Below are positions 5,331-60,183 of a stretch of 64,000 nucleotides of DNA, in pieces. Source of the stretch: Tilletia caries. Taxonomy: Eukaryota > Basidiomycota > Exobasidiomycetes > Tilletiales > Tilletiaceae. Numbering within the stretch: position 1 is the stretch's first letter; every line of letters starts with the position of its first letter. Location: NCBI GenBank assembly GCA_032718865.1, contig JALUTQ010000041.1, positions 992,001 to 1,056,000 on the forward strand, written 5' to 3'. The position numbers and the translations under genes were made by a program. The notes beneath the pieces were generated by a model that saw nothing but the letters and a program-made list of their open reading frames with translations, was not told the origin of the DNA and searched no databases.

Positions 5331-5756
5331 CAATGATGAAAGAACTGAAAAACTGTGTTATATATACCATTGTGTAAACTTTCAAAACACGAGTGACGGG
5401 CTGTCATAGCTTCCTACCCTGTAGACGACGTCGCTATATGGTGTCTGCAACTGTTTGCGAGGGACGTAGCCCCCCTTCTCGTCCCTCAGGCTGCTGTTTC
5501 TAAATTGAATCTCATGTGAAGTTCAGTCTGTTGCTCACTTGATTCTCAAGTTGAGGTTCACTTGAGCGACAACCTGTCCTTCATGTGAGTCTCACGGCTT
5601 TGTTTCTCATGTGACCCACAATTCGGACAAACAAGTGACGTTCAATTTTGTGGGAAACACTCGACCCTCAATGTACGACGGCGGTGTATTCGAGGTTGGT
5701 TGAGTGCTCATGATGCTATGCATACGGACGAACATTTCGATTTCGATGGGAGTCCA

Positions 5757-7242
5757 CTACTCTCCCGACAGCCGTGCCTTCTCTGCCATGATCTCGCGTC
5801 GCTGGAAGTACTGTGCCCCTGTAAAGCCAGGCCCGAGGACGAGAGTAGAGGGCAGTCCGACGATCGCCTTTCGAAAGAAAAGCAGGGAATATAATCAGTA
5901 CATAAACCCCAAGCAGAAGAATGTAGACATCATTGAGGAGGCTAAACTCACATCTTCGAGCAGATGGCGCTCCTCGTGCGGCCGCTTGTACCCCGAGACC
6001 TTGCTGGAGAAGAGCCTGTATGCCCAGTCGTCCGCGACGAGGTCGATCCATGCAACCGAGAAGAGCGCGATCAGGGCGCCGATGCAGTCCCAGATGAGGA
6101 GCCATTCGCCATTGGAGAGCGGGAAGGCAACATTGATGGCGGACCTGATGCCCTCCTGCTGGATGAATTGGATTGCCTTGAGGGATCCGATGTCGTTGAT
6201 GACGTTAGACAGATGCCTGACCTTATCGCAGAGAGGGGTTGCCGTCAGGTAGAGAACGAGCCACCAAAGGGGCACGGCGATCAGGGACGTATTCCGGTAG
6301 AGCCGTGCCGAATGCAGCCGTGGGGTCACGATCGTTCCCGATTTAGGCACCGGTGCGAGTTCGGCGGCGGCGGCGGCGGACAGACCGGGAAGCAGGAGCG
6401 GGAGAAAGAAGACGGGGTAAAACTGGAAGACGAGGTTGGACGCGATCCACTCTTGGGAATACTTGGTAGGCGAGACGTGAATGGTGAGAGCTGTGGTGAC
6501 GATGGCCAGGGCAGCCAGAAAGCTCGCGACGTTTGTCTTCCAATAGCCAGCGCTTGGTAATGGGTGTACGGCACCACGGTTGAGGGTCGACTGGGAGATG
6601 GCCTGGTCGCGGTCCTTCTTGCTCGCATTCAGCGCATCGTTGGCTCGTACAATCTGGGCGTATCGCACGTAGGCGTGGCTAGGCACAGAGATGAGGTTCA
6701 CTGCGCAACCCAGGCAGACCAATTGGCCAATCGAGGCCATGATGAAGATGTTGAGCGGGCTCAGGAGAGGGTGTCGGCCGGCCTTGGTCGATTCGAGAAG
6801 AAAGTGAAGCATGAGCGGCATGGAAGCGACGGCGAGGAGCCAGAGTAAACCCCTGGCGAACTGGGTAGAGAGCATATCTCGGAAGAAGCTGTGACCGAAA
6901 GCTCGAACAGTAATAGTGAGTACCAGCTTGCCTACTTAGGCACGCACATCCATGGACTCACACAATGATAATCAGTAATGTCTGCGTCGCGCTCTTCACG
7001 TCGGGACCGGAGCGAGCGCGCAAGAAGGCCGGCCAGGCATCGGACATTTGGATCTCGGCAGCAAGTCGGGATATGTCCATTTTCTCAGAGTTGTCAGGCT
7101 CAGGCCCATTCTTGGGAGCGAGATAAAATACGAGAATATGGACCAGCACGCCGGCTAGGATGGTGAGGGTCGGAATGGCGATCAGGAGTTTGGGTGAGGA
7201 GGGCCGGGACGTGGACTGCCCACGGCCTTGGACCTTAGACAT
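5757..7242 (-). CDS. Multi-pass membrane protein, function unknown
   Basis: Exons 7242-6962, 6888-5952 and 5867-5757 (73- and 84-bp introns, all phases consistent) give 442 residues. I do not recognise the family. The N-terminal exon has a hydrophobic segment (LLIAIPTLTILAGVLVHILVFYLA). Further spans follow: GLLWLLAVASMPLMLHFLL, IFIMASIGQLVCLGCAVNLI, VASFLAALAIVTTALTI, FQFYPVFFLPLLLPGL, LIAVPLWWLVLYLTA and LIWDCIGALIALFSVAWI. That is about seven in total. The C-terminus is short, charged and probably cytosolic (AQYFQRREIMAEKARLSGE). There is no catalytic motif. It could be a fungal-specific transporter-like or scaffold protein. Confidence 0.7.
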
Positions 7243-7620
7243 GGCTTTGACTTGGGGAGGAGGTGAGAGTTAGCTCAGAGAGATCAGAGATGAGAGGGGT
7301 GAGCAAGAAGGAAAGCCCGGCGGTGGGGATGAAGAGGTTAGCTTAAGTACTATCGGCGACAGCATGCGCCTACAGCAGTATAGAGGACTTGGAAGCAGCA
7401 TACATGTTGATGAACGAACGGCGAGCAGCTGGAATTGCAAGCGCGGACACATCTGACATCCTCAACGCCTCAACCAGTGCATCTCTCCGCGACGATGTGG
7501 ACGCACTTCTCCGTCACGAGAAAGTCTCCGCAAAAAGAAAAGGGCGTCTTGCAATTGAATTGGCAGACGGCGGACGAGTGACTGCAACTGGCAGGACTCA
7601 GAAGAGGATTACATTGAGCG
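7243..7620. other. Divergent intergenic region (bidirectional promoter space)
   Basis: 378 bp between the minus-strand membrane-protein gene and the plus-strand gene starting at 7621. I see no repeat or clear core promoter element. Confidence 0.4.
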
Positions 7621-25281: not shown

Positions 25282-27139
25282 TCAGATGGGCTTCATCTTC
25301 TTCGTCTCCGTCTCCCATTCGGTTCCTTCCCAATTTCTCGAATTGGCGGGGAAGAGACACGGAAGCAGGGCAAAGGCCAGGAGGATGAAACCAACGGATC
25401 CCCCGAGAAGAGCGATGGCCTGAGATTGGTTGGGGGGGAAGGTTGGAGAGAAGAGAAGGGATTGCATTGTCAGAATCTTGTCTTTTAAGTCTTTAGGCAA
25501 GGGTAGAGATCCTCATCTGAGACCAGAGGCTACGTACCATAAGTTTGTGCTTCGGGGTCGCAAAGGACTTGGTGCCGGGCGGCTTCTTGGCGACGTCGCC
25601 CGGGTTACTGAGGTTGGTGAGGTCCGGATAGCGGACATCAAAGTCCTCCTGGAAGATGTGCCAGAGACTCTGATTGGCGGTGAACATGTTGAAATCGGAG
25701 TGCGACGTGTTGGCCATGTAGCTGAGAGTGAATTTCTCTGGCCAGACACCGTTGGTGACGTCGGCGATCTCCTGGATGAACTGGGAACCGCGACCCAAGT
25801 GCGTGGCACCTTGACGCTGAGCTTCGCAGTGGGTGTCGCCGAACCCGTTGTCAAGGAGGCCGAGGGCGATGTGGACGCGACGTGAGAAGAAGCGGTTGAC
25901 GACGGCCTCCTTGGAAGCTTCGACCTGCTTGCGACCGTATCTGGTCATCTTGGTCAGATTGCCTGCGAGACCATATCCCCATTGGTCATAGGTGGGGTCG
26001 CACGTTGCATTATTGTTGACCGGGCGGTCTGGGCTGAGCCATGCCCAGGAACCAGGATTTCCGATCCAGTATCGGATGTTATCGTCGTACGGCTTGGCTT
26101 TCTTGAGAAGGGCATACCGCTGAGTGGCCTGAGCGCCCATGGAATGGCCGATGATCGAGACGGACTTGAGGTTGGGGAAGTTTTGTTTGTCGAACAGCCA
26201 ATCGGTGAAGTTGTCCAGGATGTCGTAGGATGTGATGGTGCCATTCATCGGCTGTGGATGAACGGCCTGGTAGCCGGATTGCCAGCGAGACCCGTGGAAG
26301 GCGAGCCAGTTGCTCTCGACTGCGCCTGCATTGAGGTCGTCCTCGTTCAAGAACGCGGGGGAGATGATGATGACGGAGTCATTCGACGGTATATTTTCTG
26401 CGGGCACGTTCTCATTCGTCGCGTTCTGGCCCGCAGCGTAGAGGCCGGACATGGTGTATGCACCGTACTTCCAGCAGTCGCGAGGTTTACCTGGCCAGGT
26501 GATCACGGCCCGCTTGACGGTTTCCGGGTTGTAGCCCGAGGTAATGTAGTACGGCATGACTGCATTCTCCACGATGGTCCAGTTGACGAGTTCGAATCCC
26601 AGTTGTTGGGGCAGGCCCATCCAGCCTCCGACGGCGTCTTGAGCGGCGTTGCCTATGGGAATGAAGGTTAAGTTGGTCCAAGGAGGACGCTGCTGAGTCT
26701 CGTCATTATTGATAGCATATTGGTTTGCCGTGAGAGTTGAGTTGAGAACCATCGCGTTGTTCATGAGAACGGCCTTTGAGGCTGCGATTGGGTCGGTGTA
26801 TGCCAGTTCGACCCAGGTGTACTGGTCTGCTTCGGTGGGGAAGTCCGGGACGGCAGGCGTATTGTCAGCCGAGAAGTCCTGCTTCTGTCGTCTTTCCGGT
26901 GCGTGAGAATCGACATTAGTTGCGGTTCTGCGCTGGAAGGCAGGCTGTTCCTGAGCTCGAGCGAGGGCAGCATGTCTGTTGTTGTTATGATGGCTGCCGC
27001 TGAAGGGTGAGGATAAGGAGGGTGACGCGTGGTGGATGAGGGCATCTTGCTGTACTTGTTGGACTGGCACGCTCGCTTGGGATGTCGAGGCGAGTGATGC
27101 TGTGGCACCCAGTGCGAGCAGTGATCTTGTGAATCGCAT
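25282..27139 (-). CDS. Secreted/membrane-anchored alpha/beta-hydrolase
   Basis: Exons 27139-25538 and 25419-25282 (118-bp intron, donor GTACGT) give 579 residues. The start is taken at the ATG giving MRFTRSLLALGATASLAS, a good signal peptide, rather than the upstream non-ATG codons. The nucleophile elbow is GHSMGAQ (Ser near residue 333). A C-terminal His is likely in the TSHSDFNMF segment. N-glycosylation sequons are frequent (e.g. NLT, NAT, NDS), as in exported proteins. The second exon adds ALLGGSVGFILLAFALLPC, a single TM, and a short tail, making this a type I membrane protein. The family is a fungal secreted hydrolase of unknown substrate (esterase/lipase fold). Confidence 0.75.
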
Positions 27140-27626
27140 CGCAAGCTTCTTCACAGACGCGCAGCTGTACTTGGTCGTCGATGATCGCTGGGAAGGGGGG
27201 GAGGGAGGGAGGCAAACGGAGGGAGGAGGGGATAGTGAGAGAGAGAGTGAGCAACAAGAAGGCGTCAGCGCGTCAGCTCGGAGAGGAGGTCGAGAGGCGG
27301 CCTGAACCGCATCATTGTCACATTTGTGTGTCTGCTATAACACACACGGGCCCCTCCCCGTCTCACAACGGCCTCCCCCTCGCCACCAAGCAAGTCAGCC
27401 TAAGTTCCTTGAACCGCTCCACCTCCGTCGACTTTTCTGCGCTACCGAGACTGACATACTGACACCTCTGCCCGCAGTATGTGATAGCACAAGCAGCAGC
27501 CATGACCCAAAATCGATTGGCCCAGCTGAATGAGTCGAGGTCTTGAACGAGGAGCCCCGTCGACTCGTCGGTGGTGGTGACTGGTGAGCGAGACCAAACG
27601 AATGAATGAATCCAGGTTCCAACTGA
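27140..27626. other. Promoter region of hydrolase gene and left flank of the DUF6589 transposon
   Basis: About 490 bp. The GAGAGAGAGTGAG run near 27,236 is on the hydrolase promoter side. Otherwise I see nothing supported. Confidence 0.4.
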
Positions 27627-27636
27627 CTTGTGGTGA
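27627..27636 (+). repeat. Target-site duplication, left copy (CTTGTGGTGA)
   Basis: Identical 10 bp at 34,496-34,505, directly abutting the terminal inverted repeats of the 6.9-kb element. Confidence 0.85.
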
Positions 27637-27692
27637 TAGTCTGGTCACACCAGACCACTCCAGTCAGCTGTACGTGGTCTGGGGACACTCGA
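27637..27692 (+). repeat. Left terminal inverted repeat block (20-mer plus 17-mer)
   Basis: The outer 20-mer at 27637-27656, a 19-bp spacer, then the inner 17-mer at 27676-27692. Both match the right end perfectly in inverse orientation. Confidence 0.92.
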
Positions 27693-27784
27693 CCCGATTT
27701 TATTAGTATCTGGACAACCCCAAATGTACTACTATCACCATATCCCCATGCTTCACACCTGAACCAACACGCATCCTCACAAAC

Positions 27785-30700
27785 ATGACGCCCCAAGCAG
27801 AGCACCCTCGGTGAGTATAATGCACACACGTTCAGACAGACATGTTGCGACGGTGCAGCGGCTTGCTACTGTGCTGGAAGCGAGGAAGGTGACAACCGCA
27901 GTTTCGTCCATTGGCGGGTCTATACTCTATAGAATTACTGACAGCCATTGCTCCTTCCTTGTTGCACAGAATTACGCGGCTCGAGAAGACAGAAGCTGTT
28001 CATGCGGCTATGGTGGAGGTCGGTCTATCCTTCTCCGACTTTTTGGAGGAGTTCCTCACCACCAAGGCCAGTAGCTTGCAGCGCATTCGGTCAATCTGGC
28101 TTTCCTACCGCTCCGATCGTCAATACGGACCTCTACGCCTCGTTCAGCTGCTTAGCGAGGCCGTGCGCAGTGCTGGAGACGATGGAGCACTCGCGTACGA
28201 CAAAGGGGTTGCATCTATCCTCTCCGACACCATCGCTGACGAAAAGGACCAGGCCTCCCACGTACCCGGATTTCGATCTTCCGACTTTCTGAAAGATTCG
28301 TCGGCACCTGAAACGAATCAACTTCGATACCTGAGCACGTTGATGGAAGAGCATCTTCCCGTGACGTTATGCGTCGCAGATTGTCTATGCGGAACCATCA
28401 ACCAAGAAGGCCCTGTCTCTGACGGTCAAAAGGAAATTGACGGCCACATAACCGAGGACCCCCCGGAACTGTCAGAATCTCGGCAGGTGAGCAAGCTGAT
28501 TCACGTATCATACAGTCACCACTCACCAGCTTCCTGACTAAACAGATGTCTTTTTGATTCACAGGCTGCCGTTGTCTGCCTCTCACTTGCTCTGAACCTG
28601 CGCAGCGAACGAATGAACAGACTGCAGACGGTCCTTGGTCTGTTTCTCAGGTTCAAACACACGCCCAAACCAATCCACACGATGCTCCATCGACTCGGAC
28701 TAGCGACTTGCCCGAAAACCAGCTCTCGTCACCTGGTCGAATTCAACAAGATCTCTCTTACCAAAGCCAAGACCATGATGCAGAATCCAGAACGAGTCCA
28801 CACCCTCGTTTACGACAACTTCGACATTTATGTTCAAGAGTTGTCCAATCGGGTCACATCAGCAACTCGAGTCGTCAACCTTACCTGTCGAATGGTGGTC
28901 GAGCTTCCAGAGTCATTTTCCTCCGCAGATATATCCACGTCCATCCTATCCACCGTCAACGCTCCGCGAGATTTGAAGGAATCCGAAGTTCTGGGTGATG
29001 ATGCGTTTTTGACACGCGCTGCGCATCTGTTCTTGGCCCAAGAGCTGCTCCAATCGAAGCGCGCAGCGAGCGATCCTCAAAGCAAACGTGTGCGGGACAC
29101 CATTCGACTCCTGCGGGACTACATACGAGACCTCCGTGACGCTCACCGCGTAGACGAGCTTTCAGCAGCGCGATGGCAGGTAGCTCCGCTTCCATTGATA
29201 GAGGCGAACGAAGGGAGCCTTGACGGAACTCTGGCTGTGATGGAGGATACTTCAATCATTCTGGGCGTTTACGATGAGGTTGAGATTGCCGACCCTACGG
29301 CTGCATCTCAAACGTCTTCCTCCTCACCAAACCAAACCAGTTGGGACATTCGGCGCTCCAGCGTTTTGCCAAAGGACGGCGTCTTGCTGGTCGTTGGAGA
29401 TTTAAAGACGCACAGGAATGCCGAGGCAGCATTGAAGGGACGTAGCCGGCATACTAAAGCTGAAGACAGGTATGAATTTATACATTCAATGTCTGCTCCC
29501 TGGCATTTGCACCTTAACTGGGTGTGGGCGATATTCAAAACACACTTCTCGACATCCAAGTTTGGGTATCAAGCGAGCTTAGAGCGTCTTCGTGACGCGC
29601 TCCGTCGAGGCAAGACAGCGCTGCGAGAGGATGAACCGCTGTACAACGAAGCCTGGGCTTTGATCCAGCATACGTTTAGCGGGTGGATCCGATGCCTGTT
29701 TGTTGCACAGCTAGGCAAGCAAAGAAAAGATTTGGCGACATGGACGCCGTCCAACGCTGATGCGGTTCGCGAGCTCGTAGACTCTTTTCGTAATGCAGCG
29801 TTAACGGAACCATCGATATATGCTGCCGAGCTACTTCAAGACGAGGTCGGGGCGAACGCGCGTCGATTCCTACGCGATGCACTTCTGGCGATAGAGTGGA
29901 GCGACGCTTGTCGGACGGGAGACGTTGGGAGGATGCTGATGGCCCAAAGGTTCCTGGCTGTTGCGTTTGCCGGCGTCGGCAAGCACCAGTACTCGCAGAC
30001 GTGCCTGGACGAGATCTGGGCCCATAAGGTACTACCGGTCAAAACATGGCGAACCCTGGCCGCCGCCCGCCTCATCAATCGCTTTGGGGTCCAGAACGGC
30101 TTCATCGGCGCCGATCTGTACCAAGAACACTTGAACAAAGAGCTACAGGTCAGTGGGAGGTTAACGACAGAAGAGACCTTTGAGGATGCGGTCGCTCACC
30201 TTTCCTTGTATCTCCAATTTCCATTCAGCGGGTAAATACCAAGCACGGAGCAGCAACGGCGGTTTCGAGACTGCGGGATTGCTTCTCGGCTGTTGCGGAG
30301 ATTTCGAGGTCCCTGAACGATGCCCATCCGGAGCTCTTTGACAAGAACGGACGAAGGCTGAAGGATGACGATGGTCATGTCAAGGATGTTGAGCGGGTTA
30401 GCAATCTGGCTCAGTAAGACGGACTCTTCGACGTACATTCGAGTAGATTGTCAAACGAGACATTGGCCGCACGCGTCAGTCGTAAGCCAAAACCAAACGC
30501 GGCAGGGGTTCCGACTGGGATGGATTTAATCGCCGATCTGCTGCCAACGCAGTGCGGTACCGATGTGCTCGAGAAAGGGTTGAACTACTTGAGAGCGAAG
30601 GGACTTCAACAGTGGAAGAACGCAAGATCAGCATGGTGTCGATACGAGGCCTTGCTGCGAGAAGGGGGGGTCACAGAGAACCTAGAAACAGATCAGGACG

Positions 30701-30924
30701 AGGGTCTCGTAGTCGCGACTGAGGAGGACGCGGTTAACGTACCTAGACTTCTGGATTCCGAGCCCGACATTCTCAGCGATGACGCCAGACGAGCCCTAGA
30801 AGAGGAACAGATGCATCGGAACTGGTTGCGCAGGGAGGAAGAAGCTGAAGCTGAATTAGCGCTGGTGGACGAAGATATCACAGGGGATGGTGGTGAAGAA
30901 GGATCGATGGTGAGACAGGAGTAA
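27785..30924 (+). CDS. DUF6589 protein, candidate transposase
   Basis: Exons 27785-27810 (26 nt), 27970-28486, 28565-30148, then 30229-30417 if translation stops at TAA (771 aa). Alternatively a 33-nt intron at 30414-30446 is removed and the frame continues to 30924 (929 aa). The N-terminal region is helical (ITRLEKTEAVHAAMVEVG). The DUF6589 signature starts at NRLQTVLGLFLRFKHTPK (~residue 197). Two conserved-looking acidic motifs follow: VHTLVYDNFDIY (Asp ~265) and LLVVGDLKTH (Asp ~460), then a WHLHLNWVWAIFKTHF segment. The VYDN...GDxxT pair separated by ~195 residues resembles strands of an RNase H-fold DDE nuclease, which would suit a transposase. The gene sits alone with a helicase between perfect TIRs. 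The domain name is recalled from family pattern; catalysis is inference. Confidence 0.75.
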
Positions 30925-30989
30925 TCGTAACTCACCTCTGCGTTTGTGTTGATGTGTAGGTCCGCACAAGGCTGCTGAATGAACGAAGC

Positions 30990-33900
30990 TCATGCCTTAG
31001 ATACCCATCCGTTTCGGGTTAGTCGTGCGGCAATGGGAAGGGTGAGACTGAGCGTAGCCCACTCCAACAGGGCAGGCAGCAACGCAATGGTATGTTCCTC
31101 TGACATGCCGGAAGAATGGCCAAGCAGAGATCGTATGTAAGAGTCGTCGATGCCCTCCTTGAACACGGCACGTGCGAGTAAGCGGGGTGCTCTGTCGATC
31201 AAGCCGCCCATCGTTTCGTCTGGCATCACAGATCGCTCCGTCTGCCACTCACGCACGCCGGAGCGGCTTTTGTATACGTTCCTCCTCCAAACAAACAAAG
31301 CTCTTCCCAAGCTGCGACAAAGCTCGACAGTATCGGAATGGGCAGGTGGAGCAGTCAGACGGCCCACGGCAGTAGAAACGCCGACATCGATTGGCAATCG
31401 TTCGACAGTGTTGCTGTCGTGGCACTGGAAGCAGCAAGTGGGATTAGTGCCCTCCATTGTGCCTAGATCCGTGGTATAGCCAGCGCTCGGAGTTCTCCTC
31501 CAGTAGAAGGACGACAGTGTGTCTTCGATTGGCCCATCACCGATAGATTCGGTACTGACTGATGGAGGTGTCGGATTGTGCGGCTCGACGGTCTGAATCA
31601 CAGGTTTGAAATCCAGCCGAAGAAGATCCGTGATTGCGACCCGCAAACATCCCGGAGTAGAAAGCCATGTCGTGAGTTGGGTGTCGAGGTTGCTCCACTG
31701 CTGCTGCAGATGAGGAGTCAGACTGGATGCCGGTGGCGCAGACTCCGGCGACGCTTCGTGCGCTCGCCGAGCTTTGTAAAAATTCCGACATCGTTCGACC
31801 CAGTCAGGACACAGCAGGAGCGCCGCTGCGCGCGATCCTGGGCCGCGAGCTCCACGTCCGAAGTGCTGGACCAGTCCTCGAAAGTCCTTCGGCAGCTCCC
31901 ACTGGATGATCATATCTACGTCGGGTAAATCGATACCCATTCCGAGAGCCTCTGTGGCAAAGACGACTCGTATCGATCCTGAACGTAGGCCGGCCATCGT
32001 TTTTCGCTTCTCGTATGCGGAGTCCATAGCCGTGAACGAAGCAACCTGGTCCCTCAGCGATTCCGGGAGATGTTGTCGAAGTAGCTCCGCAGCCATCGTA
32101 GCCTTACTCCGTGAATTGACGTATATGATCGTCTTTGGTAGCACGTTGGAACCATCCCTCGGTTGGAGTATCGTAAGCAGATCGTGGAACGATGAAGCCG
32201 CATGCCGAAAAGGCTGAATGTCGTACGTGCACCCGTCTCGTTCTTTACCGACATCCAGCGCAAAGAAGGGCAACCGACCGAACTGTAGTGCTGAGCAAAT
32301 CGAAGGCAGGGATGGTCCACTCAGCGTAGCTGACATGGCGAGTAGAGGAACGTTGGCGTTGAGCTTGGCCCGCAATAAACCGAGCTTGCCGAATTCCGGC
32401 CTGAAGGCCGCCCTTCCGGAGCCTGAGGCGATTCCCCAGTCGTACACGAGGTGTGCTTCATCCACGACAACGGCACGCAAGTCTCTGGCCCACATGCTCT
32501 CGCTGACGGCTTTGCCAACCCTGGTATTGTGGAACAGAACTTCGGGCGACAGAAAGACAACTTGCGCGGTGTTGTTCTCGATCTCTCGTATGGGATTGAA
32601 TGCGCGCTCCTTTGACCCTCGGCCATGTATTAGCCTGCGCCGGGGACACTGCAAATGGTAAAAGATCACATCGGTCAACACGTCTGGCCTTAGCCCTACG
32701 CCCCAACGCGCTGATTTATCCCGTTCAATGGACTGACCTCTGCACCGAGAGTGTCGGCGTTGAGCGCGACTGCCGATATACCCAGCTCATGCAAAATGTT
32801 GGTCTGGTGAATCATAAGTGTGAAGGTCTTCAGAACATATGTATGCAAGACAGAATGAATCGCGTTTATGTATCCTACCTGCTCCAACTGGATCTCTCTG
32901 AGTCCAGTGATAACCAAAAAATTGGCCTTGGGAAGACGAAGAAGAAGGGAGGCGAAGACCCAGATCATACTCTTGCCTGATCCCGTCCCCGCAGCAACGA
33001 CTCCATCCATGCCGCCGAGCAAACGATAGACCGCCTCAACCTGCCATGGCTTCGGCTCGAATGGAAAATCACGCGTGCCCATGGCAGCGCGCACCCTCTC
33101 AATCAATATGTGTCTGGGAGGTAGCACATCTCGCTCCTTCCCAGACAGGCGAGGTCGCACTCGAGTTGTATTGGGTCCTGTGTTGTGGAAGGGAAAAGAA
33201 AGGTAACCAGAAAAAATCTGTAAATGAGTAGCCGGCAACAGTCCACATAATCACACATCGAAAGCAACTCACTTTTGCGTTTGCTGGCGCGTGTCTCAAT
33301 GCCATGTGAGGCAGACGCGGCGGAAACTGGTTCATTGTGACGGCTGTTGAATGCGGTTGGCGTGGGGGTGTTCAAGGAGAGGGATGCGGCCGTTTGGTCG
33401 GTCGGCGACGGCTGCGCATTGCGCGAACCAAAAGAACCGTGCCAGAGCGCGCACAAAGCCTCTGCGCCAATCCTTTCTTCATTCGAGATGTGAAGATCAC
33501 TGTATAAGTGTGATCAAAGTAGCAAGCATATGTAAATTGTCAGCATTTATGCCCTGAAGTCTGCTCAACTCGAGTCTCAGTCATAAGATGCATCATGCTC
33601 ACATTTCCATGTCCTCCACTTGATCTGATCCCTGCCGAGCATTGATTGGCCCAACACCGGGCTCCGGCGAAGAAATCCGACGTCTCTGGGCGATGAGAAT
33701 AAGGTAAAAGATCACAGTCAGATATTAGCCGCGTGCGATTCAAGCTCTGGCCTCTGACGCTATTTACGGTGCGCACCTTTGAACCACAAGGAGATGGTTC
33801 ATATCCGATGTCGACGCAGGCAGGCGCGACGATTTCGGCAGCGGGAGATGGGCGCTGAGGATTGGCTGATGCTGGATGAGGTCCGTTGTCCAAGACCGCG

Positions 33901-34461
33901 AACGGAACGCGACTCGGTCTTGAGCATGGTACAGCATGGCCTGGCATGTCTGAGGGAGAAGTAAAGTGGCGCATCATGCACGTATCAGTTCCGTATGTAG
34001 GCCAATGCAATAGCGCGGGGACGGGAAGCTCACTGGTACTCCAGGGGATGGTGAAAGAATATTGAATCGTACCGGGTAGTCGAGTGGTCGTGCTGGCGTG
34101 CAATAGGCGTGCGGGCTAGAGTATGAAGAGATGATAGGGAATGGGGAGGCATGAGCACACGACCGCAGAACAATCAGCTTGATATACCGTACAGCAGAAG
34201 ACGGATGATGGAGGAACTCACAGCTGCGCACAAGGTCGTGATCCAGTGAACAGCAAGCCGTAAGCTGTGGAAGCGCGTTTGCAGCGGGCGCGCCGCGCGA
34301 ATGAGCTGCTTGCATGACGTGCAGGGGATCCGTGCGTCTTGTGGTGTATGGGAATCGAAATGAGACGTTGGAGGGGACAAGTTGGGCCCCCCATTAGTGG
34401 GAGATCCAGCCAAAACTGCCTCGAGTGTCCCCAGACCGTCTCCACGGGATCTGTCCCTCAT
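30990..34461 (-). CDS. RecQ-like DEAH DNA helicase of the transposon
   Basis: Seven exons: 34461-34222, 34115-34073, 33949-33777, 33685-33603, 33499-33273, 33177-32738, 32648-30990. Every phase matches, giving 954 residues. The N-terminal exon carries a zinc-type CTSCKQLIRAARPLQTRFH motif. The helicase core has Q-motif-like FPFEPKPWQVEAV, Walker A AGTGSGKS, DEAH in VVVDEAHLVYDWG, motif III AMSATL, motif IV TIIYVNSRSK, motif V ATEALGMGIDLPDVDMII and motif VI QHFGRGARG. This is superfamily 2, RecQ-like, as in basidiomycete telomere-linked and repeat-associated helicases. It probably unwinds DNA during excision or repair of the element. Oddly, the first ATG lies 35 bp inside the element end, and the inner 17-bp repeat is coding. 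The next in-frame Met is in exon 3. Confidence 0.87.
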
Positions 34462-34495
34462 CACGTGCGAGCGACGGTCTGGTGTGACCAGACTA
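34421..34495 (-). repeat. Right terminal inverted repeat block (17-mer plus 20-mer)
   Basis: The inner 17-mer at 34421-34437, a 38-bp spacer (twice the left spacer), and the outer 20-mer at 34476-34495. Confidence 0.92.
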
Positions 34496-34505
34496 CTTGT
34501 GGTGA
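34496..34505 (+). repeat. Target-site duplication, right copy
   Basis: CTTGTGGTGA, 10/10 identical to the left copy at 27627-27636. An 11th base (A) could belong to either the duplication or the TIR. Confidence 0.85.
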
Positions 34506-60033: not shown

Positions 60034-60183
60034 AGGACTGGAGGACAAGACAGGAGGGATCAGGAGACTACGCAGAGAGGGAGTGTGAAGTGGAGGTCCG
60101 GGCCGGACTGCCGTGGGTGCTGCGTGTCCCTTCTTCCATGTAAAACTTCTTCCTGTCAATGAGAACCACCATCAGTTTCCACA

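Follow-up and report, generated by a model that had tools for sequence, protein, structure and literature searches.

In a 64,000-nucleotide stretch of the Tilletia caries genome (GenBank assembly GCA_032718865.1, contig JALUTQ010000041.1, positions 992,001 to 1,056,000 of the forward strand; the whole stretch is called the window here), positions 27637-34495 hold an element with two convergent genes, one for a DUF6589 protein and one for a RecQ-like helicase. A preliminary description of the window had claimed perfect 20-bp and 17-bp inverted repeat pairs, a 10-bp flanking duplication and the convergent gene pair for this element, and all of these were recovered to the base. The features, in window coordinates, are the following.

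27637..34495, no strand: whole transposon, 6859 bp, bounded by both ends and the duplication; copies of the same extent lie on contigs C28 and C6.
27627..27636, + strand: left copy of the target-site duplication, 10 bp, CTTGTGGTGA; equality with the right copy was asserted by script.
34496..34505, + strand: right copy of the target-site duplication, 10 bp, CTTGTGGTGA, an exact direct repeat of the left copy.
27637..27656, + strand: left terminal inverted repeat (TIR), 20 bp, TAGTCTGGTCACACCAGACC, itself partly palindromic.
34476..34495, - strand: right TIR, 20 bp, a perfect match to the left one, TAGTCTGGTCACACCAGACC.
27676..27692, + strand: left subterminal repeat, 17 bp, GGTCTGGGGACACTCGA.
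34421..34437, - strand: right subterminal repeat, 17 bp, GGTCTGGGGACACTCGA.
27785..30924, + strand: DUF6589 gene with introns, encoding a candidate DDD/E transposase; extent set by eye, with the annotated protein P0001 of T. controversa as guide.
28613..30235, + strand: main DUF6589 reading frame (540 aa), which contains the candidate catalytic residues.
28814..28816, + strand: candidate catalytic D in a YDN motif; of 21 aligned rows, 19 have a residue at this position, and all 19 show D.
29399..29401, + strand: candidate catalytic D in a GDLK motif; of 21 aligned rows, 19 have a residue at this position, and all 19 show D.
30125..30127, + strand: candidate catalytic E in a QEH motif; of 21 aligned rows, 17 have a residue at this position, and all 17 show E.
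30990..33456, - strand: RecQ-like superfamily 2 (SF2) helicase gene, with core frames at 32681-30990 and 33238-32696; exon joints were placed by eye, and the introns and N-terminal end are approximate.

The termini of this element recur in the genome, a check that the preliminary description had proposed. Scanning the assembly (38.1 Mb in 40 contigs) for the 20-bp end, with one position free and at most one mismatch, gave 195 occurrences (102 forward and 93 reverse, the first hundred of the 195 places being listed) versus none for a reversed-pattern control. The exact 17-bp subterminal core sits within a longer inverted pair of 26 nt (85%). A hairpin-forming left end was also considered and set aside: folded as a single strand, the left 64 nt did only mildly better than shuffled sequences (z = -1.89, with 8 of 200 shuffles equally good).

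Near-identical copies of the whole element are present on contigs C28 (99.6%), C6 (98.0%) and C27 (99.6% and 99.3% for the two parts that a 355-bp insert separates); all three are full-ended, and each has its own 9- or 10-bp duplication. A deleted copy lies on C33. A sister family of seven loci shares about 67-69% DNA identity with the window family, and by eye has a block related to the 17-bp subterminal repeat at a similar distance from its ends. At nine of the 12 loci examined in the two families, the window included, the element is flanked by an exact target duplication, which is 10 bp long in eight cases and 9 bp in one (C6); no duplication was seen at the C4 and C33 loci, and at C10 the element ends were not found. 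Two copies contain inserts of their own. The 355-bp insert of the C27 copy (about 5721-6076 of the L011 element) is perhaps a short interspersed nuclear element, since its ends are repeated and part of it looks by eye like a tRNA, while a GC-rich insert of about 450 bp with inverted ends by eye (about 6849-7297 of the L014 element) is nested in the C13a copy of the sister family.

Short derivatives accompany the long copies. Twenty short loci were picked because their ends are paired or lie near each other: 13 are flanked by an exact 10-bp duplication, six have an end pair without a duplication and one has no proper pair. Two sets among the short copies measure about 520-534 bp, and in one of these sets the ends resemble those of the autonomous elements (90-93%). 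On contig C12, a 4066-bp TIR-bounded copy of a 531-bp nonautonomous type (L036, 105-4170) carries a 10-bp duplication, and at one end 444 bp of it match the 531-bp derivative. Given this match, and given that its inner frame looks by eye, on reading the open reading frame, like a nested Harbinger-type transposon, the idea of gene capture in this copy was dropped. Across 21 10-bp duplications, the window's included, the first base is G or C in 18 and the last base in 17, which possibly reflects a weak target preference at the duplication borders.

We then looked for the sites as they would have been before insertion. For 24 insertions with duplications, the flanks were joined with one copy of the duplication kept (80 letters each, the last 70), and the best 40 of 150 candidates from a genome search were scored. 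Full-length, uninterrupted sites with 100% identity were found for at least three of the 24 junctions: those of the C28 copy of the window family, the C13b copy of the sister family and the short copy L024. The best sites for the junction of the C27 sister-family copy match at 98-99%, the junction of the C35 copy matches uninterrupted sites at 88-90%, and for the L040 junction 58-61 bp spanning the join match at 98-100%. The remaining 18 junctions, the window's own among them, had no empty site among the best 40 of 150 candidates; because only these were scored, the count of empty sites is a lower bound. The matched sites are paralogous repeats into which the elements jumped rather than sister alleles, and the elements inserted precisely into these formerly intact sites, duplicating 10 bp. 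Thus, the duplications at long and short loci and the empty sites, exact ones among them within the same genome, bear out the earlier proposal that the locus is a transposon. The window also holds, at 60083-60157 (G000:C36:1052083-1052157), a repeat with 89% identity to the uninterrupted target site of the C27 sister-family copy.

In a Pfam scan of five frames, the main forward frame matched DUF6589 (PF20231, E = 3.5e-48) and two reverse frames matched DEAD and Helicase_C. The preliminary description had cast DUF6589 as the transposase, and this appears likely from the invariance of the candidate D, D and E in the aligned rows and from a structure comparison based on a weak model, for which the nearest folds were the P element and hAT (Hermes) transposases. 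These enzymes have an RNase H-like core with a helical insertion. A sequence search of the PDB with the DUF6589 profile gave no match. In the window copy, the main helicase frame is open, and so is the DUF6589 frame that carries the candidate catalytic residues. Its DUF6589 tail contains an in-frame TAA at 30415-30417, which makes the autonomy of this copy uncertain; the position is open in the three other near-complete copies (C28, C27 and C6), and beyond it the C28 and C27 frames remain open to the end of the stretch examined and the C6 frame breaks further on. A Tilletia controversa protein matches 53% of the length of the DUF6589 frame at 100% identity. Among the 8000 candidates scored in each search, 17 of 18 matches to the DUF6589 protein were from Tilletia and one was from Lentinula, a profile built from 15 DUF6589 proteins found five matches, all from Tilletia, and a search from a divergent DUF6589 found one relative. 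Our literature search returned no paper that names DUF6589, and a search for PF20231 returned one paper containing the string, on an unrelated subject.

The partner gene resembles RecQ helicases. Its main frame matches recQ_fam (TIGR00614) with E = 1.7e-24 and 86 bits, below the curated cut-off of 220, and in a PDB search Bloom was the best match, with RecQ and WRN among the top matches. By E-value the top NCBIfam match is DpdF (1.1e-26, far below its cut-off), which we take to be a model of a phage-defence helicase. We interpret the recQ_fam and DpdF matches as a general SF2/RecQ relationship. About 1 kb to the right of the recognizable helicase exons perhaps consists, by eye, of N-terminal helicase exons and untranslated DNA.

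To what extent do the two genes travel together? Clustering of Pfam and helicase matches gave 48 DUF6589 loci and 59 helicase loci in the genome, and at 42 of the 48 a convergent helicase lies within 6 kb, where uniform placement would predict about 0.005 per locus. These counts cover loci rather than families, and because many of the loci are mutual copies the 42 pairings are not independent events. The helicase is nonetheless a regular partner of DUF6589 beyond the window, as the preliminary description had supposed. No convergent helicase accompanies the six others (C1:1389758, C13:496601, C3:1466037, C40:1373302, C40:1395899 and C40:1731921), of which C13:496601 is a sister-family copy whose helicase core is deleted. 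Conversely, 17 of the 59 helicase loci are unpaired; most are weak matches, and these may be host helicases.

Both genes also carry a rough signature of purifying selection. We compared 28 open-frame pairs between the window and sister families by the ratio of nonsynonymous to synonymous differences per site (pN/pS), with synonymous divergence near saturation in the long blocks (1.6 or more). The seven pairs within the two genes' own frames gave values of 0.24-0.37, including 0.31 over 384 codons and 0.24 over 153 codons for DUF6589 and 0.36 over 553 codons for the main helicase frame. Of the other 21 pairs, 15 fell at 0.66-3.44 and six at 0.35-0.47. One of these six, 146 codons long, is antisense to the helicase, and such a low ratio is expected where wobble positions on opposite strands coincide.

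Four further pairs of loci with DUF6589 and a helicase, eight loci in all, represent other families. In the C7 copy the ends are TAGTCTCG, exact over 8 bp, and the duplication measures 9 bp; the C23 copy has a 19-bp inverted repeat starting TAGGCTCG and likewise a 9-bp duplication. At the other six loci no target duplication was seen. They include a pair on C5 and C39 (L044 1380-8093 and L045 1319-8031) that is 99.5% identical over 6.7 kb, starts with (G)TAGTCTC and lacks a duplication, and a pair on C25 and C1, also without one, whose shared block may stop short of the true ends. The unit of DUF6589 gene, helicase and duplication put forward in the preliminary description therefore holds in part: the pairing stands at 42 of 48 loci, but six loci lack the helicase and six of these eight lack the duplication.

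Among described transposons, the closest counterpart is AcademH, described by Kojima 2020 (Mob DNA 11:15), as cited in excerpts of PMC10045372, PMC10799480, PMC8290104 and PMC12210899. As excerpted, PMC10045372 gives target duplications of 9 or 10 bp for AcademH and of 3 or 4 bp for AcademX and ties the two to a helicase and a nuclease, respectively, and PMC10799480 has AcademH as a low-copy group present in Basidiomycota, Ascomycota and Mucoromycota. Part of a 2019 paper (PMC6416283) states that domains such as DEAD/DEAH and recQ_fam occur in most fungal Academ copies, which are frequently mistaken for host genes in annotation. In Marasmius oreades, according to a passage of PMC8290104, putative nonautonomous Academ elements are widespread. 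The string 'academ' is absent from the main text of the bunt-fungus genome paper (PMC9172201), and our literature search found no paper combining Academ or AcademH with Tilletia. Our element is likewise a helicase-bearing fungal DNA transposon, a likeness of description, as excerpted, rather than of transposase sequence. Duplications of 9-10 bp occur at 9/12 loci of the two families, 13/20 short loci and 2/8 loci of the other families; a helicase stands beside the putative transposase (recQ_fam E = 1.7e-24, Bloom best in the PDB, pairing at 42/48 loci); and the host is a basidiomycete, with a T. controversa protein matching the DUF6589 frame. In its anatomy, its partner gene, the length of its duplications and its host group the element conforms to AcademH, and none of the features compared spoke against it. 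On this matching anatomy, rather than on a direct sequence comparison, we file DUF6589 as a putative Academ transposase, and with its invariant D, D and E and its weak P-element/Hermes-like model it is most likely that of AcademH. Taken as a whole, the element is best explained, and very probably so, as a recently active AcademH-type DNA transposon of a Tilletia species.

The preliminary description knew of no described superfamily with this gene pair. That claim is not supported in view of AcademH, with its helicase, 9-10-bp duplications and fungal range as given in excerpts of PMC10045372, PMC10799480 and PMC6416283, and because the published description, as quoted in other papers, fits the element, we reject a new superfamily as the best reading. 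A distinct, undescribed superfamily with a DUF6589 unrelated to the Academ transposase could still have converged on the AcademH gene set and duplication length, and would agree with the lack of any paper naming DUF6589 and with an AcademH assignment made without direct transposase comparison; yet convergence in host group, RecQ-type helicase and 9-10-bp duplication alike is unlikely, and we give this reading a small chance. We give a similarly small chance to the idea that DUF6589 is its own DDD/E transposase lineage and not Academ's, with partnerships between transposases and RecQ helicases having arisen more than once (in AcademH, DUF6589 elements and KolobokH); if true, RecQ helicases would have been recruited again and again for a specific task in eukaryotic transposition. 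KolobokH itself is a fungal group with a DDD/E transposase and a RecQ helicase, according to part of PMC9587614, and so shares host and partner gene with our element, but the same source gives TTAA, 4 bp, as the Kolobok target duplication, whereas the duplications here are 9-10 bp and varied in sequence, and KolobokH is hardly credible. AcademX, which by its excerpted description belongs to the same superfamily as AcademH, was rejected because the duplications are 9-10 bp instead of 3 or 4 and the Pfam scan of five frames revealed no nuclease domain. A Mutator-like element (MULE, MuDR) was set aside as well, PF10551 being absent among the Pfam matches up to E = 1 in the same frames. The large helicase and the fungal host might suggest a Helitron-like or tyrosine-recombinase (Crypton/Starship-like) element whose inverted ends are incidental. 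To our knowledge, however, Helitrons make no target duplication and carry a Rep/helicase fusion, and we know of no such duplications in either group; the TIRs and 9-10-bp duplications in many copies, the exact empty sites, and the lack of Rep/HUH or tyrosine-recombinase domains in the Pfam matches of the five frames leave this reading a vanishingly small chance.

A separate question is whether the helicase belongs to the transposition machinery or is a passenger or defence-type gene. For a passenger speak the sister-family copy C13b, which has no helicase core and carries a duplication, having either moved with a helicase acting in trans or lost its own once inserted, and the top NCBIfam match by E-value, DpdF, far below its cut-off. 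Against this, the pair is kept at 42/48 loci and the main helicase frame has the pN/pS of 0.36 given above. We regard a passenger as unlikely, though less so than the alternatives for the transposase.

For an AcademH-type element, we propose the following route. DUF6589, as a DDD/E (RNase H-like) transposase, would bind the partly palindromic ends with their 20-bp terminal and 17-bp subterminal repeats, free them, and join the freed ends to target DNA with a 9-10-bp stagger, and host repair of the staggered gaps would leave the 9-10-bp duplications. The convergent RecQ-like helicase would probably unwind or remodel the ends or the strand-transfer intermediates. We infer a cut-and-paste rather than a replicative route; the step directly observed is insertion.

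Adjoining the left end of the element, an open frame of 553 aa occupies 25493-27154 on the - strand; by eye, its product looks like a secreted alpha/beta hydrolase-like protein.

The kind of element is probably not new, and what our analysis adds is the proposed link between DUF6589 and AcademH and the pairing at 42 of 48 loci. For DUF6589, which Pfam lists as a family of unknown function, this suggests a role as the AcademH transposase, and it does so in a group where, according to part of PMC6416283, domains are often annotated as host genes. A single 38-Mb genome here combines 48 DUF6589 loci with near-identical copies, short derivatives and exact empty sites, and T. caries thus offers a clean system for studying the role of a RecQ helicase in a DNA transposon.
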